A stretch of DNA of 58,967 nucleotides from positions 13,333 through 72,299 of the forward strand of contig CADBVG010000018.1 of NCBI GenBank assembly GCA_902798105.1, written 5' to 3'. This document shows, piece after piece, positions 4,709 to 54,509 of the stretch. Position 1 is the first letter of the stretch. The number at the start of each line of letters is the position of its first letter. Under the pieces are notes generated by a model. The model ran no database searches and was not told where the DNA came from. It saw nothing but the letters and a program-made list of their open reading frames with translations. The stretch comes from an uncultured Eubacteriales bacterium (GTDB lineage: Bacteria > Bacillota > Clostridia > Christensenellales > Aristaeellaceae). A program made the position numbers and the translations under genes.

Positions 4709-5707
4709 CTATTCCTCCGCCGTTCGCACGGTGACGCTCAGGCCCAGGGGCAGGGCGACGCCCGCTTCCGGCAGGATGCGCACGGTATAGGCCCCGTCCT
4801 CCGCAACCCACGCGCTTTCCACGACCGTGCCGTCGAAGGTGGTTTCATCGGGGTCACGGGTGAGGGTCAGCGTCACCCGCTGGCCGGTTTTGAACCGCGC
4901 GGCATCGGTCTCGCTCACTTCGATCTCAACGCACACCTGGCCGTCGGGCACGATTTCAGCCAAGACCTGGCCTTCCTCCACGCCGTCGCCTTTCCGCACG
5001 CCCAGGCTGGCCAGTATGCCGCAGACGGGGGCGGCGATTTCGCCGCCGTTGATCTCGCAGAGCAGCTGGCCGCGCTCCACGGCGTCGCCCTCGCCGACGG
5101 CCAGCCGGGTAACGGTGCCGCTGGCTTCATAACCATGGGTGTCGCTGGCCACCGCGGTGCCGATGCCCACGCGCTGGCTGGTGGTGAATGCCGCGTCCCG
5201 GTACAGGTAGACGGTCTCGCCCATGTACAGCTCGCCGCCTACGGTGACGACCAGGTACTCCCCGCCGTCCACCTGGGTCACCACACCCACGGCCCGGTGG
5301 GTGCCGTCGGCGGTGCAGCGCACATACAGCGTCTCGCCGCTGTGCACCAGCGTGGATTCGGCGCTCTGGTAGGCCTTGTCCACCGTGCAGTGGATCGTGT
5401 AGCGCTCCAGCGGGGCGATTTCCATAAGCGTGCCGTCAATCGCGTCTCCCGCGTGGGCGTTGACCAGCGAGACCGTGCCGTCCTGGGCGGCGTAGATCCG
5501 CTCGCCCTTCAGCGACAGCAGGCTATCGCCGGCGTCAACGTGGTCGCCCACCGCGGCGTCGATCCCCTGGACCAGGCCCGGGACGTCGGCGACCACCACC
5601 TGCGTGGACAGGGCCGCCGTCGCGCCCTCATAGACCTCGGCCAGCGCAGGCGCGCAGATCGCCAGCGCCATCAGCGCCGCCAACAGGGCCGTCAGCTTCT
5701 TCAACAT
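4709..5707 (-). CDS. Exported HlyD/RND-adaptor-like protein (copy 1)
   Basis: This 332-aa protein has a signal peptide (MLKKLTALLAALMALAICAP, cleavage after ALA) and no membrane anchor. Two lipoyl/barrel-sandwich half motifs are visible: VPGLVQGIDAAVGDHVDAGD near residue 35 and a second set around EASGTVTRLAVGEGDAVERG with GILASLGVRKGDGVEEGQVL. A later stretch resembles an adaptor beta-barrel (TDAARFKTGQRVTLTL). The long coiled-coil hairpin of MacA/HlyD is absent. The start at 5707 is preferred over 5713 because AAAGGA is then 8 nt away. It is a paralogue of the 7210-8361 product. It probably bridges or binds envelope components, but no transport function can be shown from sequence. Confidence 0.75.
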   Translation of the reverse strand: MLKKLTALLAALMALAICAPALAEVYEGATAALSTQVVVADVPGLVQGIDAAVGDHVDAGDSLLSLKGERIYAAQDGTVSLVNAHAGDAIDGTLMEIAPLERYTIHCTVDKAYQSAESTLVHSGETLYVRCTADGTHRAVGVVTQVDGGEYLVVTVGGELYMGETVYLYRDAAFTTSQRVGIGTAVASDTHGYEASGTVTRLAVGEGDAVERGQLLCEINGGEIAAPVCGILASLGVRKGDGVEEGQVLAEIVPDGQVCVEIEVSETDAARFKTGQRVTLTLTRDPDETTFDGTVVESAWVAEDGAYTVRILPEAGVALPLGLSVTVRTAEE

Positions 5708-36303: not shown

Positions 36304-37383
36304 TTATTTGCCCGCAAGCGATTTGCGGTACTTCTCGCTCTCCCAGTTGGCGATGAAGGCCTTGGCGGCCTCGCCCATGGTGGACAGGGTGTAACCCTTT
36401 TTCTCGATGGCGCGGCAGATGAACAGCACGGCGGTCAGCGTCTCGGCGATCACCTGGGCCTTTGCGGCGGGCATGTTGAAGGTCACGACGCCGGTCTGCG
36501 GGTTGCAGACGGCCATGCCCTCCTGAGGCTTGCCCTCGCCGAAGCTGAACACGCCGGTCAGGAATACCAGCTGGTCGGGGTAGAGGGGGGACTCCAGCAG
36601 GAACTTCTCGCTGAAATCGCCGGAGGCCAGCTGCTGGGCCAGGAAGGGGCAGTCCGCTTCGAACAGGCCGTCGCCGACGTCCTTTACGCCCACCTTCGGG
36701 AAGCTGCCGTTTTCGATGCCGAAGGCCCTTGCGATGCGGTCGTTGACGTCGGTGTGGACGCGCAGGCACTCGTCCGGGTCGTCGCTGTGGGCGATCAGGC
36801 CGTGGTTCTGCATGAATATGGCGGCGGGTCGGCGGCCGGTCTCGGCCTCCACGCGGCGCACCTCGTCGCGGATGGAGAAGGTCAGCCGCGCGCCGGGATC
36901 CACATAGCTGACCCAGCCCCAGCTGTAGTCGGCGTCGGCCAGCGCGACCTTGACGATGCTCTCCAGCTCGGCGCTGCACGCGGCCAGGTTGGCGTAGACG
37001 CTGTGGCTGTGGGCCACATAGGTGTCCAGGATCGAATGGAAGCCCGCCTCCACGGAGGGGCGCAGCGCCGCCAGGCCTTCGACGGCCTTTGTGTTGGCCT
37101 TGGCCTGTTCGCTGCCCGCCTTTTCCACGTCCGGGAGGGTGGCGGGATCGGTATTGTTGTAGAAGCCGCGCAGCGCCTCGTAGTCCAGCACGGCGTAGGC
37201 CTTGTCGGGGCGGATGTCCTTCAGGCAGTAGCCGGAGGCCTTGATGGCCATCAGGCCGCCCTCCAGCTTTGCCGAGGTATTGCCGCCGCCGCCCTGCACA
37301 TAGTCCGCCCGTGCGCCGACGCTGGTGGAGATGCGGGTGAAGTTGTCCAGCCGCGCCTTGTTGCGCTCAAAGAAATTGCTCAT
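36304..37383 (-). CDS. Class II aldolase/adducin-family protein (internal start)
   Basis: This 359-aa product starts at the internal ATG with its own GGAGG. It resembles the aldolase half of rhamnulose-1-phosphate aldolase/dehydrogenase proteins: the phosphate loop DYVQGGGGNTSAKL, IKASGYCLKDI, zinc histidines in VAHSHSVYANLAACS, and a further His in FMQNHGLIAHSDD. The C-terminal ~100 residues (FGEGKPQEGMAVCNPQTGVV, then VLFICRAIEKKGYTLSTMG) lie outside the core. It probably cleaves or forms a phosphorylated sugar; the true substrate is unknown. No rhamnose genes are near. Confidence 0.82.
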   Translation of the reverse strand: MSNFFERNKARLDNFTRISTSVGARADYVQGGGGNTSAKLEGGLMAIKASGYCLKDIRPDKAYAVLDYEALRGFYNNTDPATLPDVEKAGSEQAKANTKAVEGLAALRPSVEAGFHSILDTYVAHSHSVYANLAACSAELESIVKVALADADYSWGWVSYVDPGARLTFSIRDEVRRVEAETGRRPAAIFMQNHGLIAHSDDPDECLRVHTDVNDRIARAFGIENGSFPKVGVKDVGDGLFEADCPFLAQQLASGDFSEKFLLESPLYPDQLVFLTGVFSFGEGKPQEGMAVCNPQTGVVTFNMPAAKAQVIAETLTAVLFICRAIEKKGYTLSTMGEAAKAFIANWESEKYRKSLAGK

Positions 37384-38082
37384 GTCCGTTCCTCCGTTTG
37401 TCGTTTTGTCCTCAGCGCCGGTCAGCGGCGCCATTTTCGCGATCAAAAAGTGTATGGCCTTGCCCTGGCCGACGTACAGCCGCTCGTGCTCGGACACGTA
37501 GTTTGGGGTAAAACCCGAGGCATGCAGGTCGTCGGTCAGGTAGGTGATTTCAAAGCCGCACGCGCCCATGTAGCGCTTTGTGGCGGTGAACAGGGCGTCG
37601 TTGTCCGTCTTGAACCAGATTTCGCCGCCGGGGACCAGAAATTCCCGGTACTGGAACAGCTGCCGCGGGTGGGTCAGGCGGCGCTTGTGGTGCTTCGCCC
37701 GCTCATCCCACGGGTTGGGAAAGTTGATGTAGATGCGCCCGATGCCGTCCGCGACGCAGAAGGTGTCATAGATGCGCATGGCGTCCACCTCGGAAAAAAC
37801 GAGGTTTTCCGGCGCGCCATCCTCGTATTCCCGCTCGGTGTTGCGCACGGACACCGCCAGCACGGTGCGCACCTCATCGATGGCGATGTAGTTGATATCC
37901 GGGTTGGCGTGGGCCATTCGCACCGTGGATACGCCCTTGCCACACCCGATTTCCAGGTGCAGCGGCCTGTCGGGGTGGGTGAAGCATTCCCGCCAGTGAC
38001 CCCGATGACTGGATGGCGCTTCGATGAAGTAGGGGCAGGCGGCCAGCTTCGGCTCGGTCCAGGGCTTTCTCCTCATCCGCAT
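36304..38082 (-). CDS. trmB: TrmB tRNA methyltransferase running in frame into a class II aldolase
   Basis: Residues 1-213 are a complete tRNA (guanine-46-N7)-methyltransferase: LHLEIGCGKGVSTVR (SAM site), AIDEVRTVLA, the RNA-binding INFPNPWDERAKHHKRRLTH and the terminal SEHERLYVGQGKAIHFLI. No stop codon follows. A ~20-residue linker (APLTGAEDKTTNGGTD) leads straight into the aldolase, giving a possible 592-aa fusion. A GGAGG lies 7 nt before the internal ATG at 37383, so separate translation of the aldolase is also likely. ATG 38082 lies 5 nt after the stop of the upstream gene. A lost stop codon or a base error are alternatives. Confidence 0.8.
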   Translation of the reverse strand: MRMRRKPWTEPKLAACPYFIEAPSSHRGHWRECFTHPDRPLHLEIGCGKGVSTVRMAHANPDINYIAIDEVRTVLAVSVRNTEREYEDGAPENLVFSEVDAMRIYDTFCVADGIGRIYINFPNPWDERAKHHKRRLTHPRQLFQYREFLVPGGEIWFKTDNDALFTATKRYMGACGFEITYLTDDLHASGFTPNYVSEHERLYVGQGKAIHFLIAKMAPLTGAEDKTTNGGTDMSNFFERNKARLDNFTRISTSVGARADYVQGGGGNTSAKLEGGLMAIKASGYCLKDIRPDKAYAVLDYEALRGFYNNTDPATLPDVEKAGSEQAKANTKAVEGLAALRPSVEAGFHSILDTYVAHSHSVYANLAACSAELESIVKVALADADYSWGWVSYVDPGARLTFSIRDEVRRVEAETGRRPAAIFMQNHGLIAHSDDPDECLRVHTDVNDRIARAFGIENGSFPKVGVKDVGDGLFEADCPFLAQQLASGDFSEKFLLESPLYPDQLVFLTGVFSFGEGKPQEGMAVCNPQTGVVTFNMPAAKAQVIAETLTAVLFICRAIEKKGYTLSTMGEAAKAFIANWESEKYRKSLAGK

Positions 38083-38087
38083 GGCGG

Positions 38088-38327
38088 TCAGTGCTCCCCG
38101 GAGGCGTCCTCGCCCCGCGCGGCCTTTTCGGCTTCTTCCTTGCGCTTCGTCACCGTGCGCATCCAGTAAAGCAGCCCGATGCCGCCCAGCGTGGAAACCA
38201 CCCACAGAATCAGCGCAACCTGCACCCGCCCGGTCATCATCGCAACCAGCCCAAGTATATACATCGCCACCAGCACCAGCGCCGCGATGGCCCGCAGCCT
38301 GCGCAACAGCGCGTTGCGATCGTTCAT
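38088..38327 (-). CDS. Small two-helix membrane protein, 79 aa
   Basis: Unrecognised protein with two predicted helices (AIAALVLVAMYILGLVAMM and VALILWVVSTLGGIGLLYWM), a basic stretch (RTVTKRKEEAEKA) and an acidic tail. ATG 38327 is taken; an in-frame GTG at 38339 is possible and neither has an ideally spaced ribosome site. It lies 5 nt before trmB and is probably co-transcribed. Confidence 0.6.
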   Translation of the reverse strand: MNDRNALLRRLRAIAALVLVAMYILGLVAMMTGRVQVALILWVVSTLGGIGLLYWMRTVTKRKEEAEKAARGEDASGEH

Positions 38328-39720: not shown

Positions 39721-42141
39721 TTATCCCACCACGATATTGACCAGCCTGCCCGGCACGAAGATCAGCTTCCGGACGGTCTTGCCGTCGATCAGCTTCTTCA
39801 CCTCGTCCAGGGCCAGGAAGTAGTCGTTCGCGGCCTCGCGGGTCAGGTCGGAGGGCACGTCCATGCGGCCGCGCAGCTTGCCGTTGATCTGCAGGGCCAC
39901 CTCCACGGTGTCCTTGACCAGCGCGGCCTCGTCGTATTGCGGCCAGGCGGCGTACATCAGCTCGGCGTCCGACAGCTTGCACAGCTGGTTAATCTCCTCG
40001 GTGATGTGGGGCGCGACGGGGTTGAGCAGCTTCACCAGCGCCAGCAGCTCGCCCCGGGTGACGCTGCCCTTGGCGTAGATGGCGTTCACCAGGGTCATCA
40101 TGGCGGCGATGGCGGTGTTGTACTTCATCTTCTCGTAGTCCTCGCCGACCTTCTTGATGCAGGTGCTCACGTCGTAGGCCAGGTCCTTCGAGATGCCCGC
40201 CCCGTCGCTCAGCATCTCCATCAGGCGCCATACGCGGTCCAGGAAGCGCTTGCAGCCCTTCACGGAATCGTCGTTCCAGGGCGCGGCAGCGGTGTAATCG
40301 CCCATGAACAGCACGTACAGGCGCAGCGTGTCCGCGCCGTACTGCTTGACGATGTCCAGCGGGTCCACCACGTTGCCCTTGCTCTTGGACATCTTCTCGC
40401 CGTCGCTGCCCAGGATCAGGCCCTGGTAGCTGCGCTTGGCGTAGGGCTCGGGGGTGTTGACCTCGCCGATGTCGTACAGGAAGCGGTGCCAGAAGCGGGA
40501 GTACAGCAGGTGGCGGGTGACGTGCTCCATGCCGCCGTTGTACCAGTCCACGGGCATCCAGTACTTCATCTCGTCCATCGATGCGAAGGCCTTGTCGTTG
40601 TGGGGGTCCACAAACCGCAGGAAGTACCAGGATGAGCCGGCCCACTGGGGCATGGTGTCGGTCTCGCGCTTGGCGGGGCCGCCGCACTTGGGGCAGGTGC
40701 AGTTTACGAAGGATTCGATGCGGGCCAGGGGGGACTGGCCGTCAGTGCCGGGCTCAAAGTTCTCCACGTCCGGAAGCCGCAGCGGCAGCTCATCGTAGGG
40801 CACGCCCACGGTGCCGCACTTCGGGCAGTGGATCAGCGGGATGGGCTCGCCCCAGTAGCGCTGGCGGTTGAAGGCCCAGTCCTTCATCTTGTACTGTATG
40901 CCCTTGCGGCCGATGCCCTTCTCCTCCAGGAACGCCAGCATCGCGGCGATGGAATCCGCCTTGTTGTCGTACTGGTTCAGGAATTCGGAATTGACCATCG
41001 GGCCGTTGCCGGTGTAGGCCTCCACGGCGATGTCGCCGCCCTTGATGACCTCGATGATGTCCACGCCGAACTTGGTGGCGAATTCCCAGTCGCGCTGGTC
41101 GTGGGCGGGTACGGCCATGATCGCGCCGGTGCCGTAGCCCATCATCACGTAATCGGCGATGAATATCGGGATCCGATTGCCGTTGACGGGGTTCACGGCC
41201 TCCAGTCCCATAAGCTTCACACCGGTCTTGTCCTTCGCCAGCTGGGTGCGCTCGAACTCAGTCTTCTTTGCGCAGGCCTCGCGGTAGGCTTCGACCTCGT
41301 TCCAGTTGGAAATGCGGTCCTTGTACTTGTCCAGCAGCGGATGCTCCGGGGCCATGACCATGAAGGTGACACCGAACAGGGTGTCCGGGCGGGTGGTGTA
41401 GATCTCCAGTTTTTCGTCAATGCCGTCGATGGCGAAGTCCACGAACGCGCCGGTGGAGCGGCCGATCCAGGTGACCTGCTGCTGCTTGATGCTTTCGGGG
41501 TAGTCCACGGTCTCCAGACCCTCCAGCAGCTTGTCGGCGTACTGTGTAATGCGCAGGTACCAGACGTCCTTGGGCAGCTGCACCACATCGCTGTGGCACA
41601 CGTCGCATTTGCCGCCCTGGCTGTCCTCGTTGGACAGCACCACCTTGCAGTGGGGGCAGTAGTTCACCAGTGTCTTGGCGCGGAACACCAGGCCGTGGTC
41701 GAACAGCTTCAGGAAGATCCACTGGGTCCACTTGTAGTAGTCCGGCAGGGAGGTGGAGATTTCCCGGCTCCAGTCGAAGGAGAAGCCGATCTGCTTCATC
41801 TGGTCCTTGAAGTGCTCCACGTTCCTGGTGGTGATGACGTGGGGATGGGTGTTGGTCTTGATGGCGTAGTTCTCCGCGGGCAGGCCGAAGGAGTCAAAGC
41901 CCATGGGGAACAGCACGTTGTAGCCCTCCATGCGGCGCTTGCGGGCGACGACCTCCAAACCGGAATAGGCCTTGATGTGGCCCACGTGCATGCCCGCGCC
42001 CGAGGGGTAGGGGAATTCCACCAGCGCGTAGAACTTCGGCTTGGCGTGGCTGCTCTCGGCCTCGAAGGCATGGGTGTCGTCCCAGTGGCGCTGCCATTTG
42101 GTTTCGATTTCGGACGGCGAATAGACGGGGATGTTTTTCAT
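39721..42141 (-). CDS. leuS: Leucyl-tRNA synthetase
   Basis: This 806-aa class I synthetase has the HIGH-type motif PYPSGAGMHVGHIKAYS, the connective editing domain (TRPDTLFGVTFMVMAPEHPL), zinc-type cysteines (CPHCKVVLSNEDSQGGKCDVC, shown in part; and CPKCGTVGVPYDELPLRLPD), and KMSKS as GEKMSKSKGNVVDP. The C-terminal anticodon-binding and Leu-specific domains are present. ATG 42141 is preferred over GTG 42150 because GAGG is 8 nt upstream. No T-box leader is seen upstream. Confidence 0.96.
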   Translation of the reverse strand: MKNIPVYSPSEIETKWQRHWDDTHAFEAESSHAKPKFYALVEFPYPSGAGMHVGHIKAYSGLEVVARKRRMEGYNVLFPMGFDSFGLPAENYAIKTNTHPHVITTRNVEHFKDQMKQIGFSFDWSREISTSLPDYYKWTQWIFLKLFDHGLVFRAKTLVNYCPHCKVVLSNEDSQGGKCDVCHSDVVQLPKDVWYLRITQYADKLLEGLETVDYPESIKQQQVTWIGRSTGAFVDFAIDGIDEKLEIYTTRPDTLFGVTFMVMAPEHPLLDKYKDRISNWNEVEAYREACAKKTEFERTQLAKDKTGVKLMGLEAVNPVNGNRIPIFIADYVMMGYGTGAIMAVPAHDQRDWEFATKFGVDIIEVIKGGDIAVEAYTGNGPMVNSEFLNQYDNKADSIAAMLAFLEEKGIGRKGIQYKMKDWAFNRQRYWGEPIPLIHCPKCGTVGVPYDELPLRLPDVENFEPGTDGQSPLARIESFVNCTCPKCGGPAKRETDTMPQWAGSSWYFLRFVDPHNDKAFASMDEMKYWMPVDWYNGGMEHVTRHLLYSRFWHRFLYDIGEVNTPEPYAKRSYQGLILGSDGEKMSKSKGNVVDPLDIVKQYGADTLRLYVLFMGDYTAAAPWNDDSVKGCKRFLDRVWRLMEMLSDGAGISKDLAYDVSTCIKKVGEDYEKMKYNTAIAAMMTLVNAIYAKGSVTRGELLALVKLLNPVAPHITEEINQLCKLSDAELMYAAWPQYDEAALVKDTVEVALQINGKLRGRMDVPSDLTREAANDYFLALDEVKKLIDGKTVRKLIFVPGRLVNIVVG

Positions 42142-42171
42142 GCGATGCACCTCAAATTATTATTGTAGAAA

Positions 42172-42222: not shown

Positions 42223-42840
42223 TCAGTTGGCTTTGGTGGCGTCCTCGGCGGTCTCGGCAGCGTCAGCAACCGCGGTAGCCGCCGCGTCGGCAGCCTCTTC
42301 AACTGCGTCCTGCGCGGTCTCGGCAGCTTCCTCAACCTTTTCCTCGGCAGTGTCGGCAGCGTTGCTGACGGCGTCAGCGGCCTCCTCGGCCTTCTCCCCG
42401 ACGGTGTCGGCGGCTTCCTCAGCCTTCTCCTCGACGGTGTCGGCGGCTTCTTCAGCTGCGTCAACGGCGGCGTCGGCAGCCTCGCCGGCGGTATCCTCAG
42501 CGGCCTCCTTGGCCTCCTCCACGGCGTCCTCAGCCTGTTCGGCGGCGTTGGCGGCTTCCTCAACGATGGCGTCATTGATGGAGATGGGCGCCTCGGTGTT
42601 GTGGGCGTTGATGATGGTGGCTGCGATGGCAAGCACGATGAAAACGACCGCGGCGATCTTGGTGTACTTCTGCAGCCGGCCCTCCATGCTCTTGGCCTTG
42701 TTCTTGCCGAAGAATGTTTCAGCGCCGCCGCCAATCGCGCCCAGGCCCTGGCGCTGGCCTTCCTGCATCAGCACAGTGACGATGAGAACGATGGAGATCA
42801 GAATCAGTACGATATCGACGATAATGGACAAAGCGGTCAT
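42223..42840 (-). CDS. secG: SecG with long Ala/Glu-rich C-terminal tail
   Basis: Residues 1-75 are a normal SecG subunit of the Sec translocon: a first helix (IIVDIVLILISIVLIVTVLM), the QEGQRQGLGAIGGGAETFFG loop, and a second helix (IAAVVFIVLAIAATII). The usual length is ~75 aa; here ~125 residues follow, a nearly pure Ala/Glu/Asp/Val repeat region (EEKAEEAADTVGEKAEEAAD type) predicted to be a long acidic helix or coiled coil. AAGGAGG lies 7 nt before the ATG. The tail could be cytoplasmic or external depending on SecG topology. Confidence 0.88.
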   Translation of the reverse strand: MTALSIIVDIVLILISIVLIVTVLMQEGQRQGLGAIGGGAETFFGKNKAKSMEGRLQKYTKIAAVVFIVLAIAATIINAHNTEAPISINDAIVEEAANAAEQAEDAVEEAKEAAEDTAGEAADAAVDAAEEAADTVEEKAEEAADTVGEKAEEAADAVSNAADTAEEKVEEAAETAQDAVEEAADAAATAVADAAETAEDATKAN

Positions 42841-43068: not shown

Positions 43069-43926
43069 TCATTCCTCTTCAAACATTCGAGCGATTTTCA
43101 GCTTCGCCCGATAGACCTCGTTGCGCGCATAGCCCGCCTCCTGGGCCTCCAGCGCGGCCGCGGAGAGCGCCGCGCCATCCAGCAGCCTTGCGAGCATCCA
43201 CGCTTCCACCGTGGGCTTTTCCGCCTGGGCGGGAGCGGGCGGCAGCATGGAGATGTCCGCCGCGAGACAGTATTCGCCCTTTTCCACACCGGGATTGGCG
43301 CGAAGCTGCTCGAGTACCTGGCCTGCCTGGCCCCGGTAGAGGCGCTCATAGCGCTTGGTCAGGTCGCTGCACACGCACAGCAGGCACTCCGGCCACTTTT
43401 CGGCGATGGCAGCCACCAGGTCCACCACGCGGTGGGGGGATTCATACAGCACGAATACCGGTATGCCCGTGCGGCGGATGGCCTCCAGCTTGTCGTTGAG
43501 CGCCTTTTTCTCCCGGGGCAGGAAGCCGCAGAAGGCAAACTCCCGGGCGTCGAAGCCCGAGGCGGACAGGCATGTCACCACGGCCGAGGGGCCGCACACC
43601 GGCTCCACCGGAATGCCGGCCTCCCAGCAGGCGCGCACCAGCAGGTGCCCGGGGTCGGATATGCCCGGGGTGCCCGCGTCGCAGGTCAGGGCCACGGTCA
43701 AATCCTCCGCCAGCATCTTCTCTACAATCTGCGGGGCCTTGTCTTCCTCGTTGTGCCGGTGGCAGGAGGTCATGGGCCGCCTGATGTCGAACTGGTTCAA
43801 CAGCTTCATCGTCACGCGAGTGTCCTCCGCGGCAATCAGGTCGGCGTCCTCCAGCGCCTGGCGCATCCGGGGCGTCAGGTCGTTCAGGTTGCCGATAGGT
43901 GTGGCGACGACATAAAGCCTGGGCAT
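43069..43926 (-). CDS. rsmI: 16S rRNA (cytidine-1402-2'-O)-methyltransferase
   Basis: This 285-aa SAM-dependent enzyme is of the tetrapyrrole-methylase fold and 2'-O-methylates C1402 in the ribosomal P-site region. Diagnostic stretches are YVVATPIGNLNDLTPRMRQA, LIAAEDTRVTMKLL, TCDAGTPGISDPGHLLVR, VCGPSAVVTCLSASGF and FVLYESPHRVVDLV. The last ~50 residues are a normal C-terminal extension. It lies downstream of the ArmA/Rmt-like gene on the same strand, close to rsmH, which modifies the same nucleotide on its base. Confidence 0.95.
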   Translation of the reverse strand: MPRLYVVATPIGNLNDLTPRMRQALEDADLIAAEDTRVTMKLLNQFDIRRPMTSCHRHNEEDKAPQIVEKMLAEDLTVALTCDAGTPGISDPGHLLVRACWEAGIPVEPVCGPSAVVTCLSASGFDAREFAFCGFLPREKKALNDKLEAIRRTGIPVFVLYESPHRVVDLVAAIAEKWPECLLCVCSDLTKRYERLYRGQAGQVLEQLRANPGVEKGEYCLAADISMLPPAPAQAEKPTVEAWMLARLLDGAALSAAALEAQEAGYARNEVYRAKLKIARMFEEE

Positions 43927-43978: not shown

Positions 43979-44764
43979 TTACTTCGCTATGATATAGAAC
44001 AATTCGTTTCCGGTTTCAAACTGCTCCAGAACCGACATGCCCTTTGGCAGGTGTTCCTCCATCCAGCGGGCATAGTTACCCGCCATGCCCACGCTGCGCC
44101 CGCCCAGGGTTTTGGTGGGGAAGGACACGACCAGCCGGGGGGCGTCCACGGCTTCCATGACCCTTGCCGCGCCGCCAGCGCCCTGGCGCTCCAGCAGCGG
44201 CAACAGCTTGAACAGCAGCGCCGCGTCAAAACGCGCCTTCGGAATCGTGCCGGGAGAAAGCAGGTCTGCGCAAACGGCGGAGACGGGCATACCGTATACC
44301 TCGTGGAAGGCGTTGATGGCACCGACAGCGGCGCCTGATATGTCCACACCGACGGTTCCGATCCCCCTTGCGCCCAGATAGATGGGATTGATGCCACAGG
44401 CGAGGTCAAGAACCGACCGGGGTCTTCCGGCAATGTTGAAGATGCGGTCGTACATCGCGTCCATGTCGGAAAGCGGCAGGCGTTCCCGGGTGGACGCGTG
44501 ACGGCTGAGCATCCTTTCAAGACCGATGTCGGTTTTATCGACGCACCACGCCTGCATGTCCCAGGCCAGCTGGCGCGCCTCCTGGGGCGACATAAACGCG
44601 CCGGTGATGCCGTGCAGCGCTTCCCGGGCTGCCTTCTCCACGTCTTTGGCCTTCTTGTAGCGCTTTTCACAGTCCGCCCACACACGCCGTACTGTGTCCG
44701 GGCAGACATCGCGGTAGTTCTTTGCGTTCAGCAGCTTATCGAGCAGGTCGTTATGGTCGGGCAT
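43979..44764 (-). CDS. ArmA/Rmt-like 16S rRNA (guanine-1405-N7)-methyltransferase
   Basis: This 261-aa protein aligns by eye along its whole length with the ArmA/RmtB (FmrO) family, which methylates G1405 and blocks 4,6-disubstituted deoxystreptamine aminoglycosides. Shared landmarks: YRDVCPDTVRR (17-27), RHASTRERLP (88-97), SAM motif VLDLACGINPI (118-128), DAALLFKLLPLLER (180-193) and VVSFPTKTLGGRSVGMAGNY (212-231). It is intact, with AAGGAG 6 nt before the ATG. It lies between tgt and rsmI with no mobile sequence beside it, so it looks resident. G1405 specificity is inferred from family, not shown. Confidence 0.88.
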   Translation of the reverse strand: MPDHNDLLDKLLNAKNYRDVCPDTVRRVWADCEKRYKKAKDVEKAAREALHGITGAFMSPQEARQLAWDMQAWCVDKTDIGLERMLSRHASTRERLPLSDMDAMYDRIFNIAGRPRSVLDLACGINPIYLGARGIGTVGVDISGAAVGAINAFHEVYGMPVSAVCADLLSPGTIPKARFDAALLFKLLPLLERQGAGGAARVMEAVDAPRLVVSFPTKTLGGRSVGMAGNYARWMEEHLPKGMSVLEQFETGNELFYIIAK

Positions 44765-44851: not shown

Positions 44852-45943
44852 TCAATGGGCACTACCGCCCAACAGTTCCATCAGACGCCCGTAGAAGCGC
44901 AGGTTGTGGGCCGTGGCCAGGCGCAGGGCGTAGGGGTCGTTCACCTTGAACAGGTGGTGCAGGTACGCCCGGGAGTGGTTGCGGCAGAGAATGCAGTCGC
45001 AGGCCGGGTCCACGGGACCTGCCTCCCGACGATGTTCCTCGTCCAGTATGTACAGGAATCTGTAGAATTTGCCGTCCTCCCGGCGCACGCCGTCCGGCGT
45101 ATCCATGCCGGGCAGCCAGGTGTACAGGCGCTGGTGCCGCGCCTCCCGGGTGGGAATCACGCAGTCGAACAGCGTGTAGCCCATGCCCACCAGCATGGCG
45201 ATCTCCTCGGGGCGGCCCAGGCCCATGGCGTACTTCACCTTGCCGTCGGGCATGGCATCCGCGGCCATCTTCAGTATGTCGGGCCGGAACGCCCCGCTTT
45301 GGTCCAGGGGCCAGCCGCCGAAGCCGTAGCCGTCGAAGCCGATGGCCTCCAGCCGCCTGCCGCACTCCATGCGCAGACCGGGGTCGCTTCCGCCCTGGAC
45401 GATGCCGAACAGCAGTGGCTTCTTCTCCAGCTTCCGGGCCAGCTTGTCGAACTCTGCCCGGCAGCGCTCGCCCCACTTCACGGTCAGCTCCACACTGCGC
45501 CGCTGGACCTCCGGCGGGTCGTCGGGGTGGGTACACATGTCCAGCGCCATCATGATGTCGCTGCCGTACTGGAACTGTACCTGTACGCACTTTTCCGGCG
45601 TAAAGGTCAGCTTATCCCGACCGCGGTCGGGCCTGAATATGATCTCCTTGTCCCGAATCTCGCCGTACTCCGGGTTTTCCCGAATCAGGGAATACAGCTG
45701 AAAGCCGCCGGAATCGGTGAGTATCGCACCCCTGTAGCCGGTAAAACCGTGCAGCCCGCCCAGGCTTTTGATCAGCTTGGCCCCTGGCTTGGTCATCAGG
45801 TGGTAGCTGTTCATCTCGCAGCCCTGCAGACCGGCGTCATAGACGTCCTCAAAGGCCCCGGCGCGGATGGCCCCATAGGTGGCGTCAGGGAAGAAGGCGG
45901 GCAGCTTCACGGCGCCCGACGGGGTTTCAAGCGTATTCATCAT
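44852..45943 (-). CDS. tgt: Queuine/preQ1 tRNA-ribosyltransferase
   Basis: This 363-aa enzyme exchanges guanine-34 for a queuosine precursor in tRNAs with GUN anticodons. It shows the nucleophile/acid region AILTDSGGFQLYSL, the GIVQGGSDPGLR segment, FGGWPLDQSG, the second catalytic Asp in LFDCVIPTREARHQRLYTW, and the zinc ligands in DCILCRNHSRAYLHHLF. It overlaps rsmH by 4 nt (ATGA). An ATG at 45940 is an alternative start. It starts more abruptly than typical Tgt proteins (the usual first ~20 residues are trimmed) but all active-site parts are kept. Confidence 0.9.
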   Translation of the reverse strand: MMNTLETPSGAVKLPAFFPDATYGAIRAGAFEDVYDAGLQGCEMNSYHLMTKPGAKLIKSLGGLHGFTGYRGAILTDSGGFQLYSLIRENPEYGEIRDKEIIFRPDRGRDKLTFTPEKCVQVQFQYGSDIMMALDMCTHPDDPPEVQRRSVELTVKWGERCRAEFDKLARKLEKKPLLFGIVQGGSDPGLRMECGRRLEAIGFDGYGFGGWPLDQSGAFRPDILKMAADAMPDGKVKYAMGLGRPEEIAMLVGMGYTLFDCVIPTREARHQRLYTWLPGMDTPDGVRREDGKFYRFLYILDEEHRREAGPVDPACDCILCRNHSRAYLHHLFKVNDPYALRLATAHNLRFYGRLMELLGGSAH

Positions 45944-46887
45944 AGCTTCTCCACGATGCGCAGGCTGGCGCTTCTGGCCCGGGGGTTCTGTTTCAGCTCT
46001 TCCGCAGAAGCGGTGATAGGCTTGCGGGTGATGAGCTTCACCACGGGCTTTTTACCGCATACGCAAACGGGGAAGGACTTGGGGCAGGTGCAGGGGTCGG
46101 CCAGGTTTCGGAAGGTGTTCTTGACGATGCGGTCCTCCAGCGAGTGGAAGGTGATCACGCACAGACGCCCGCCGGGAATCAATAAACCGACCAGGGTCCG
46201 CAACGCGGGCTCCAGCGGGTCCAGCTCGTCGTTCACAGCGATGCGCAGCGCCTGGAAGGTGCGGCGGGCCGGGTGGCTGCCGTCGCCGGCGCGGAACTTC
46301 TTCGGTATGGCGGCATCCACGATGCCAACCAGCTGCCCGGTGGTTTCGATGGGACCGGCCTTGCGCCGGTCGCAGATCACCCTAGCGACCTGCCGCGCCC
46401 ACTTCTCCTCGCCATAGTCCCGCAGGACGCGGTTCAATTCGTCCTCGGACCAGCCGTTCACGATATCCCTGGCGCTCAGGGCCTGTTCCTGGTCCATGCG
46501 CATGTCCAGCGGCGCGTCGTCGTGATAGGAAAAGCCCCGTTCCCGCACGTCCAGCTGGTGGCTGGAAACGCCCAGGTCCGCAAGAATCCCGTCAAGACTA
46601 CGGTCTATTCCCGCGCTTTCCAGCAGCGCCGGAGCGTCATGGAAATTGCCCCGAAGGCAACAAAAGCGCGCCTGCGTCCCAATGGAGGACAGGCGCTGGC
46701 CCGCGGCCTCGATGGCGTCGGCGTCCCGGTCGATGCCGACAAGCAGACCGCCGGGGCCAAGCCGCTTCAATATCTCGCTGGAATGGCCCGCGCCGCCCAG
46801 CGTGCAATCCAAATAGACGCCGGTCGATTTTATCGCCAGGCCATCCAGGCATTCGTTCAACAGCACCGGAAGGTGGTGAAATGACAT
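45940..46887 (-). CDS. rsmH: 16S rRNA (cytosine-1402-N4)-methyltransferase
   Basis: This 315-aa enzyme (formerly MraW) methylates N4 of C1402. Clear family stretches are HLPVLLNECLDGLAIKSTGV, the SAM motif DCTLGGAGHSSEIL, LADLGVSSHQLDVRERGFSY, RRTFQALRIAVNDELDPLE and CVITFHSLEDRIVKNTFR, with the cysteine-containing C-terminal CTCPKSFPVCVCGKK. ATG 46887 is chosen (GAGG 6 nt upstream); an in-frame ATG at 46899 is possible. In many Firmicutes it heads the division/cell-wall cluster; here it is linked to tgt instead. Confidence 0.95.
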   Translation of the reverse strand: MSFHHLPVLLNECLDGLAIKSTGVYLDCTLGGAGHSSEILKRLGPGGLLVGIDRDADAIEAAGQRLSSIGTQARFCCLRGNFHDAPALLESAGIDRSLDGILADLGVSSHQLDVRERGFSYHDDAPLDMRMDQEQALSARDIVNGWSEDELNRVLRDYGEEKWARQVARVICDRRKAGPIETTGQLVGIVDAAIPKKFRAGDGSHPARRTFQALRIAVNDELDPLEPALRTLVGLLIPGGRLCVITFHSLEDRIVKNTFRNLADPCTCPKSFPVCVCGKKPVVKLITRKPITASAEELKQNPRARSASLRIVEKL

Positions 46888-47082: not shown

Positions 47083-48093
47083 TTACAGCTTCCATGGGGC
47101 GATGCCCAGCTTCTTGCGCACCTTCAGCATCGTGCGGTGGGCGATGGCGGATGCCCTGTCCCGACCGGAGTCCATGACCTGTTGCAGATAGGCCTTGTCG
47201 GCGCTGATGCGGTCGTACTCGGCCTGTATCGGCTCCAGCACGGCGATTACGCTGTCGGCCACGGCGTCCTTGAACCTGCCGTAGCCCTGGCCGTCGTATT
47301 CAGCGGAGATCTCATCCATGGTTTTGCCGGTCAGCGCGGACATGATGCTCATCAGGTTGGCCACGCCGGGCTTCTCCTCGGGGTCGAAGCGGATGGTGCT
47401 GTCGCAGTCCGTCACGGCGCGGCGGATCTTTTTGCGGATCACGTCGGGCTTGTCCAGTATGGCGATGTAGGTCTCCTCGGGGTCGGACTTGGACATCTTG
47501 CGGGTGGGCTCCTGGAGGGACATCACCCGTGCGCCCACCTTCGGGAAGTAGCCCTCGGGGATGGTGAACACGTCGCCATAGACGCCGTTGAAGCGCTCGG
47601 CGATGTCCCGGCAGATCTCCAGGTGCTGCTTCTGGTCGGCGCCGATGGGCACCAGGTCGGTCTGGTACAGCAGTATGTCGCTGGCCATCAGCACCGGGTA
47701 GGTGAACAGGCCGCAGTTGATGTTGTCCGCGTGCTTGGCGGACTTGTCCTTGAACTGGGTCATGCGGGACATCTCGCCCATGTAGGTAAAGCAGTTCAGT
47801 ATCCAGCCCAGTTCGGCATGGGCGGGCACCTGGCTCTGGAAGTAGATGATGTTCTTTTCCGGGTCCAGGCCGCTGGCCAGGAAGATGGCCATCGTGCGCA
47901 GGCAGGCCTTGCGAAGCTCCGAGGGATTCTGGCGCACCGTCAGGGCGTGCAGGTCCACGATGGAGTACAGGCAGTCGTATTCGTCCTGCAACAGGCCGAA
48001 GTTGCGCAGCGCGCCGATGTAATTGCCCAGGGTCAGGTTGCCCGTGGGCTGAATGCCGGAAAAGATACGTTTTTTCTGAACTTGCTGTTCCAT
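47083..48093 (-). CDS. trpS: Tryptophanyl-tRNA synthetase
   Basis: This 336-aa class I synthetase charges tRNA-Trp. The HIGH-type region is IFSGIQPTGNLTLGNYIGAL, followed by SIVDLHALTV, DQKQHLEICRDIAERFN and the KMSKS motif RKMSKSDPEE. The start at 48093 has GGAGG 8 nt upstream; an in-frame start at 48108 would lack one. The length is normal. Monocistronic or co-read with the AEC transporter gene upstream. Confidence 0.95.
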   Translation of the reverse strand: MEQQVQKKRIFSGIQPTGNLTLGNYIGALRNFGLLQDEYDCLYSIVDLHALTVRQNPSELRKACLRTMAIFLASGLDPEKNIIYFQSQVPAHAELGWILNCFTYMGEMSRMTQFKDKSAKHADNINCGLFTYPVLMASDILLYQTDLVPIGADQKQHLEICRDIAERFNGVYGDVFTIPEGYFPKVGARVMSLQEPTRKMSKSDPEETYIAILDKPDVIRKKIRRAVTDCDSTIRFDPEEKPGVANLMSIMSALTGKTMDEISAEYDGQGYGRFKDAVADSVIAVLEPIQAEYDRISADKAYLQQVMDSGRDRASAIAHRTMLKVRKKLGIAPWKL

Positions 48094-48165
48094 TTCAATA
48101 ACCTCCATTGATCCGCAGAGGGAATAATCTGACCCATTATACCATGAAATGATAAATTACGTCAA

Positions 48166-54184: not shown

Positions 54185-54261
54185 AAAAGTAACGTATATT
54201 CGGCCGCCTGGGGCTTGCAAAAGTGAGTTACATGTGATACAGTAATAGCCGTAAATTGAAT

Positions 54262-54432
54262 AACACAGCGGGTGTCGGACGCGATGCGTCCGGTGAAAAG
54301 GGAAGCGGGTGCGAACCCCGCGCGAACTCGTCACTGTGATCGGGGAATGGAACGGGCAATATGCCACTGGCAACGGGAAGGCCGCCTGTTTCGTGAAGAT
54401 CCGCAAGCCAGGAGACCTGCCCGACTGTATGC
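54262..54432 (+). ncRNA. Cobalamin (B12) riboswitch
   Basis: The classic element is visible in order: GGTGAAAAGGGAAGCGGGTG, GAACCCCGCGCGAACTCGTCA, CTGTGATCGGGGA, GCCACTGG-CAAC-GGGAAGGC, then GAAGATCCGCAAGCCAGGAG and ACCTGCC (the B12-box region). It lies upstream of the exported cobalt chelatase gene, so repression by adenosylcobalamin or a related corrinoid is expected. Confidence 0.95.
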
Positions 54433-54509
54433 GGAGGCCGTTAAGGCGCGCCTCATGCCACGAGAGCCTGGCAGCATAGCAAAGCCGAATCCGTCGGAGC
54501 CTGCTGGAC

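Follow-up and report, generated by a model that had tools for sequence, protein, structure and literature searches.

A candidate decoding-site and anticodon modification operon in uncultured gut Clostridia and its relation to the mobile methyltransferase genes rmtD and rmtG

The window analysed here is a 58,967-nucleotide stretch of contig CADBVG010000018.1 from an uncultured Eubacteriales bacterium of the family Aristaeellaceae, and our subject is a putative Arm/Rmt-family 16S rRNA m7G1405 methyltransferase gene (rmt) together with the genes around it. An earlier note on this DNA had proposed an intact ArmA/Rmt-like gene resident in a Clostridia-type chromosome. The open reading frame (ORF) spans exactly 43979-44764 on the minus strand and runs uninterrupted from ATG through 261 codons to a stop, with no internal stops, as that note had described. 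All of the motifs quoted there were present in the 261-amino-acid translation (CPDTVRR, HASTRER, DLACGINP, FKLLPLLE, and SFPTKTLGGRSVGM), and the family assignment was borne out by profile searches, in which the product (RMT) scored 120.8 bits against Pfam FmrO (PF07091; cut-off 27) and 281.6 bits against NCBIfam NF000466 (cut-off 250), an equivalog model for N7 methylation of 16S rRNA G1405. The Arm/Rmt fold, with its N-terminal helical part and S-adenosylmethionine-binding part, was matched along the whole length, and a phmmer comparison with PDB 6pi9 (titled RmtF) gave an E value of 1.6e-62. At the level of sequence, membership of the Arm/Rmt family was confirmed as not due to chance. General family models were thus passed, whereas the score stayed under the cut-off of every listed single-type model, seven in all from RmtB to RmtH (highest for RmtD, 244.4 of 500), and the known mobile alleles RmtB-RmtH were therefore ruled out. 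Substitution counts against seven relatives of the genus gave nonsynonymous-to-synonymous ratios (pN/pS) of 0.19-0.41 for rmt, consistent with purifying selection.

The methyltransferase alone is a further member of a known family; what is new is the block in which it stands. The findings on the neighbouring rsmH, tgt2, and rsmI genes, and on the pairing of tgt2 with rmt, go beyond the earlier note. Immediately upstream lies tgt2 (44852-45943, minus strand), which encodes a second tRNA-guanine transglycosylase (TGT) paralog of 363 amino acids with a GGWPLD pocket motif, preceded by rsmH (45940-46887, minus strand) for the 16S rRNA m4C1402 methyltransferase; the listed rsmH ORF extends to 46935, and the matches of its relatives begin near residue 17. 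Downstream lies rsmI (43069-43926, minus strand; 285 amino acids) for the 16S rRNA C1402 2'-O-methyltransferase. RsmH and RsmI are reported to methylate C1402, three bases from G1405 (PMC12406665). The order on the minus strand is trpS, rsmH, tgt2, rmt, rsmI, secG, leuS. The listed rsmH and tgt2 ORFs overlap by 4 bases, and the tgt2-rmt gap is 87 bases in the window, with a median of -8 (an overlap) across 69 loci, plasmid loci included, among which the values of L115, L086, and L112 are affected by badly set gene ends. The rsmH-tgt2-rmt-rsmI block was whole in 22 of 26 loci of the genus, the remaining four being broken by contig ends, and the tgt2-rmt pair was found in all 26. Beyond the genus, tgt2 and rmt were adjacent in 34 of the 38 family loci fetched out of 43 (G458, G518, G568, G584, and G609 were left out) and in 4/4 loci from other families of the order. 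By this conserved layout, rsmH-tgt2-rmt-rsmI is a predicted operon-like block of an uncultured Clostridia genus, with an intact RMT resident there.

We then examined how far rmt belongs to the chromosome. It was detected in 27 of 28 genomes of the genus, the genome of the window included, the sole miss being a 67% complete genome (G012). Matches were obtained in 70 of the 308 family genomes, representing 20 of 50 genera; the figures are 69 genomes and 19 genera without G518, which we did not count as rmt (21.6 bits, with stops inside). In the order, rmt exceeded the Pfam cut-off in 11 of 395 genomes, and 4 of 15 FmrO matches fell under it. The window surroundings resemble an ordinary chromosome, with ABC and HlyD transporters, cobalamin genes, tRNA synthetases, secG, YbbR, and five tRNAs, so that the proposed chromosomal residence was upheld. 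The accompanying claim that no mobile DNA adjoins the gene stands within the limits of the scan: no transposase or integrase family was found among 38 window ORFs scanned against Pfam, a part of the window's ORFs, and 14 of 30 in one batch matched no family. No antibiotic-biosynthesis or other resistance gene was found among the matched window ORFs. By their record titles, contigs matching rmt come from metagenome-assembled genomes (MAGs) of rumen and gut, namely goat ileum, roe deer rumen, and sheep rumen; Candidatus Faecivicinus and Candidatus Pullichristensenella appear in the titles for further genera of this family.

Near-universal presence in the genus, a block made of housekeeping genes, and the lack of antibiotic-related genes among the matched ORFs would also fit an explanation in which ordinary decoding in these lineages relies on m7G1405 and the TGT2 product as constitutive modifications, resistance being a side effect exploited only after plasmid transfer. 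Above the genus, however, the family and order counts show rmt to be patchy, and most relatives live without it, whereas some TGT match was present in 372 of 395 order genomes. We regard this explanation, which overlaps with the one preferred below, as a serious candidate that falls somewhat short of an even chance.

The product of the operon tgt gene, for which we coin the name TGT2, shares 36% identity with the other TGT of its own genome. In a 117-row tree, a 100% branch split 25 canonical TGTs from 92 operon-type and plasmid TGTs. TGT2 has the TGT fold and its catalytic residues, keeping D77, D135, C137, Q183, and D260 as well as the zinc residues C315/C317/C320/H346 (window numbering). 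It scored 279.6 bits against the superfamily model TIGR00449 (cut-off 47.6), and its 286 bits against TIGR00430, the equivalog for the canonical queuosine TGT, lay under the cut-off of 306.75. The difference lies in the base pocket: canonical bacterial TGTs (Zymomonas mobilis, PDB 5jsw, and others) carry a GGL[AS]VGE loop for preQ1, whereas TGT2 proteins mostly read GGWPLDx and have lost the following Glu. W211 was found in 91 of 92 TGT2 rows and P212 in all 92, against V and E in 25/25 canonical rows; the motif is GGWP in window TGT2, TgtD, TgtG, and TgtB2, and GGFP in TgtE2. Queuine-type TGTs (Chlamydia and others) belong to the same superfamily, and their published pocket motif GG[LS][AS]G (PMC11570991) was not matched by TGT2. 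Identity as a canonical tgt was ruled out by the separate clade and the different pocket. Like rmt, tgt2 appeared to be under purifying selection (pN/pS 0.11-0.19, seven genus relatives).

TGT2 and rmt occur together. In the order sample, TGT2 (at least 451 bits, next best 213) was present in 11 of 395 genomes, exactly the 11 with rmt; in the family it was present in 67 of 308, and rmt in 67/67 of these. Of the 70 family rmt matches, three lacked TGT2: G518 is no true rmt, the rmt of G530 lies where its contig ends, and G568 is fragmentary. In G473, G474, and G492 both genes are present on separate contigs, and the co-occurrence is therefore not one of adjacency alone. These observations bear on whether TGT2 adjoins rmt merely through shared inheritance and is of no use to it. 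Close or overlapping genes travel together in transfer, and the rmtB1 and rmtF1 plasmid loci lack a nearby tgt, yet RmtB gives a kanamycin minimum inhibitory concentration (MIC) of >1,024 mg/L in E. coli (PMC12406665). Passive descent is nonetheless unlikely in our judgement, since both genes are kept on separate contigs, no family genome carries TGT2 without rmt (0/67), and TGT2 is more constrained than rmt and has a conserved pocket of its own.

We extended the comparison to 23 further loci, whose titles mostly indicate other phyla (Chloroflexota, Armatimonadota, Gemmatimonadota, and others). They came from the best 80 of 307 RMT relatives, and the sample is therefore tilted towards the family of the window genome. 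The tgt and rmt genes were side by side in 19, of which L192 is counted on the strength of a TGT piece at the edge of its contig; in one further locus, tgt follows rsmI. A Chloroflexus islandicus record (L189) is an example of the two genes adjoining each other. When the genomes of these loci were searched, TGT2 was found in 20 of 22, one as two pieces (contig C102 of G678, perhaps a frameshift). Separately, three loci from other phyla (L186, L194, and L199) showed two RMT-like genes near a single TGT.

A survey of queuosine genes found QueA in 24/24 genomes, with and without rmt. QueC-model matches at E 0.001 were obtained in 18 of 24, of which 12 of 24 exceeded the low 22-bit cut-off; the best reached 28.2 bits (28.9 with neighbours) and most were partial, and in our judgement they are related domains rather than QueC. 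Queuosine in these genomes is likely made from a salvaged precursor, and the survey leaves TGT2 unexplained.

Relatives of the window RMT, the ribosome-methylating Arm/Rmt enzymes, make hospital bacteria resistant to aminoglycosides. To our knowledge, the origin of the mobile 16S rRNA methyltransferase (16S-RMTase) genes is unsettled. Antibiotic producers are the usual suspected source (PMC12406665), and the same publication gives such a producer as the origin of Sgm, the sisomicin-gentamicin resistance methylase (PDB 3lcu); in contrast, the window ORFs that were scanned gave no match to an aminoglycoside pathway gene. The plasmid-borne RmtD1 (NZ_KT935445) and RmtG (NZ_CP004000) belong to the same family as the window RMT (48% and 47% identity), each with a tgt of the same type directly upstream and with fragments of the same neighbouring genes. 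The window gene differs in being chromosomal, in standing in the full block with no insertion sequence among the ORFs scanned, and in scoring below the RmtD and RmtG model cut-offs.

On the rmtG plasmid we found, in order, a trpS piece corresponding to the 3' part of the gene (window residues 247-341, 75%), rsmH (77%), tgt (76%), rmtG, and an rsmI piece (the first 79 residues, 81%), followed by an IS91-like transposase. On the rmtD1 plasmid, an rsmH piece (residues 287-331, 63%) and tgt (79%) lie alongside the gene, and the protein downstream of rmtD1 is not a piece of RsmI. The genes truncated at the segment ends are evidence of a cut, and both plasmid versions look like pieces excised from chromosomal operons of this kind. 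The RsmH rows L055 and L057 were mis-framed and excluded. The plasmid arrangement of rmtG with rsmH, tgt, and a third gene has already been published (PMC9311965, citing Passarelli-Araujo 2019), as has a tRNA ribosyltransferase gene upstream of rmtG (PMC3904158). Among other mobile forms, the rmtB2 locus of Providencia rettgeri carries a tgt (64%) beyond an intervening phosphoesterase gene, and the rmtE2 plasmid locus a truncated tgt (53%). As side observations, short RMT-like stretches flank rmtF1 at its plasmid locus L125 (3787-3861, residues 35-59, 72%; 4735-4833, residues 215-247, 42%), as if remnants of more rmt copies, and rmtB1 occurs at 100% identity on the P. rettgeri chromosome NZ_CP059348, where the 12.7 kb fetched contained no tgt match.

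In the quick RMT tree, RmtD1 and RmtG were sisters within a 36-row family clade (starred support value 99). In the careful tree (41 of 96 rows; bootstrap not settled), they fell into a six-row clade with G478, G479, G582, and G583 (99/95), itself within a clade that includes the window genus (100/99); RmtF1 paired with the long-branched G411 row (97/93), and RmtB1 was unresolved within the family clade. The TGT tree (careful version, 41 of 117 rows) placed the plasmid TgtG as sister to G582/G583 (97/97), whose matching contigs are titled 'Lapin', which we read as rabbit. TgtD was placed amid rows from the family (93/89), TgtB2 immediately outside its main group (99/97), and TgtE2 with G490 near G114/G132 (99/90, 99/93). 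The window RMT thus groups with RmtD1 and RmtG, with RmtB and RmtF in the wider clade and ArmA unplaced in the quick tree. In these comparisons, no sampled relatives of mobile rmtG and rmtD are closer than the chromosomes of this family, which have the same neighbouring genes, and we infer that this family is the source lineage of both. The earlier suggestion of an ancestor-type reservoir is strengthened beyond what the sequence alone had allowed, because the plasmid segments hold the same operon pieces and RmtD1 and RmtG nest in the family tree. This would place the donor lineage within a single family of uncultured Clostridia from the guts of ruminants and other animals. A literature search returned neither a chromosomal Clostridia source of rmtD/rmtG nor a TGT paralog paired with RMTases among the titles and abstract openings of the matches listed, most subscription journals being outside its reach.

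Several points weigh against this origin. The donor itself is absent from the family genomes sampled, whose best identities are about 56-57% to RmtD1, 82% to TgtD, and 81% (full-length) or 84% (partial) to TgtG; RmtC and ArmA were not tied to the family in the quick tree; no tgt match was found within about 4 kb at the rmtB1 and rmtF1 plasmid loci looked at, RmtF and RmtB (PDB 6pi9, 3frh) being mobile as well; and the tgt of the rmtB2 locus is separated by another gene. The opposite direction, acquisition by gut Clostridia from Gram-negative plasmids, might be expected given how often Enterobacteria carry the mobile forms (matches in 1582 of 72,556 plasmid records). We rejected it as extremely improbable because RmtD1 and RmtG are nested inside a diversity that sits in chromosomes, spread over several phyla and over 19 of the 50 genera of the family (20 if the weak G518 is included), and because the plasmid copies hold truncated trpS, rsmH, and rsmI pieces in chromosomal order. 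Among viral contigs, 62 stretches matched the search pattern and none was a relative; a phage collection gave 2 records of one Acinetobacter 'phage', whose FmrO-annotated gene has 27.7% identity, the same value as for ArmA.

Taken jointly, the explanation we consider probable is a chromosomal decoding-site and anticodon modification operon for aminoglycoside tolerance, in a lineage that was also the source of rmtD and rmtG. RMT is predicted to methylate N7 of 16S G1405 and so would block 4,6-disubstituted deoxystreptamine aminoglycosides, protecting the cell. RsmH and RsmI would modify C1402 nearby, and the predicted action of TGT2 is to replace a guanine, whose likeliest location is position 34 of GUN tRNAs, with some base that differs from the customary preQ1. 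The joint changes to ribosome and anticodon may keep decoding accurate on G1405-methylated ribosomes and under aminoglycosides. RMTases alter translational fidelity in E. coli (PMC12406665), an effect that a tRNA wobble change could offset. In published Vibrio cholerae transposon insertion sequencing (TN-seq), disrupting tgt, rsmH, or rsmI was harmful under sub-MIC tobramycin (-15.8, -8.4, and -8.4, respectively). By analogy, from other enzymes in other bacteria, this lends independent support to the shared theme.

RMT might instead modify an rRNA site other than G1405, as it is known here from fold and sequence. We consider this very unlikely, given that the equivalog cut-off of NF000466 was passed and that the clade holds RmtD and RmtG, and the wider clade RmtB and RmtF. 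Other evidence tells against the joint explanation. The V. cholerae data concern canonical Tgt and not TGT2; in that work, the MIC of the tgt mutant was nearly unchanged and rsmH and rsmI were not followed up beyond TN-seq. RMT is less constrained than TGT2 by pN/pS, and two of the 22 RMT genomes from further loci lack TGT2 (G681 with a canonical TGT only, G686 with no TGT). 16S rRNA genes were found in 0 of 28 genus MAGs (control positive in 9 of 14) and the decoding-site pattern in 1 of 44 genomes, and the base at G1405 was therefore not readable.

More tentatively, and with somewhat less than even confidence, we suggest that TGT2 represents a third functional transglycosylase class, specific to neither preQ1 nor queuine, which inserts some other base into tRNA or the decoding region as the partner of m7G1405 ribosomes. 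The tgt2-rmt pair would then be an ancient two-part ribosome/tRNA self-protection module across several phyla, with some hospital Rmt genes as its detached halves. Such a partner offers a testable idea of why rmt genes might be costly when they stand apart from it, and suggests a possible class of RNA base-exchange enzyme that routine annotation has left unrecognised.

The outer neighbours are also mostly kept in the genus. Upstream lies a class I tRNA synthetase gene of W/Y type (47083-48108, minus strand), for which the label trpS is our own; downstream are secG (42223-42840, minus strand) and leuS (39721-42150, minus strand). The SecG product matches Pfam up to residue 77 of 205 and continues in a long Ala/Glu-rich tail. 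Elsewhere in the window, a cobalamin riboswitch (103.2 bits) lies at 54256-54438 on the plus strand, with cobalamin synthesis genes at about 33-36 kb, and a class II aldolase domain and a putative methyltransferase domain (PF02390, TrmB type) share a single open frame at 36304-38205 on the minus strand, which represents either a fusion or a missing stop.
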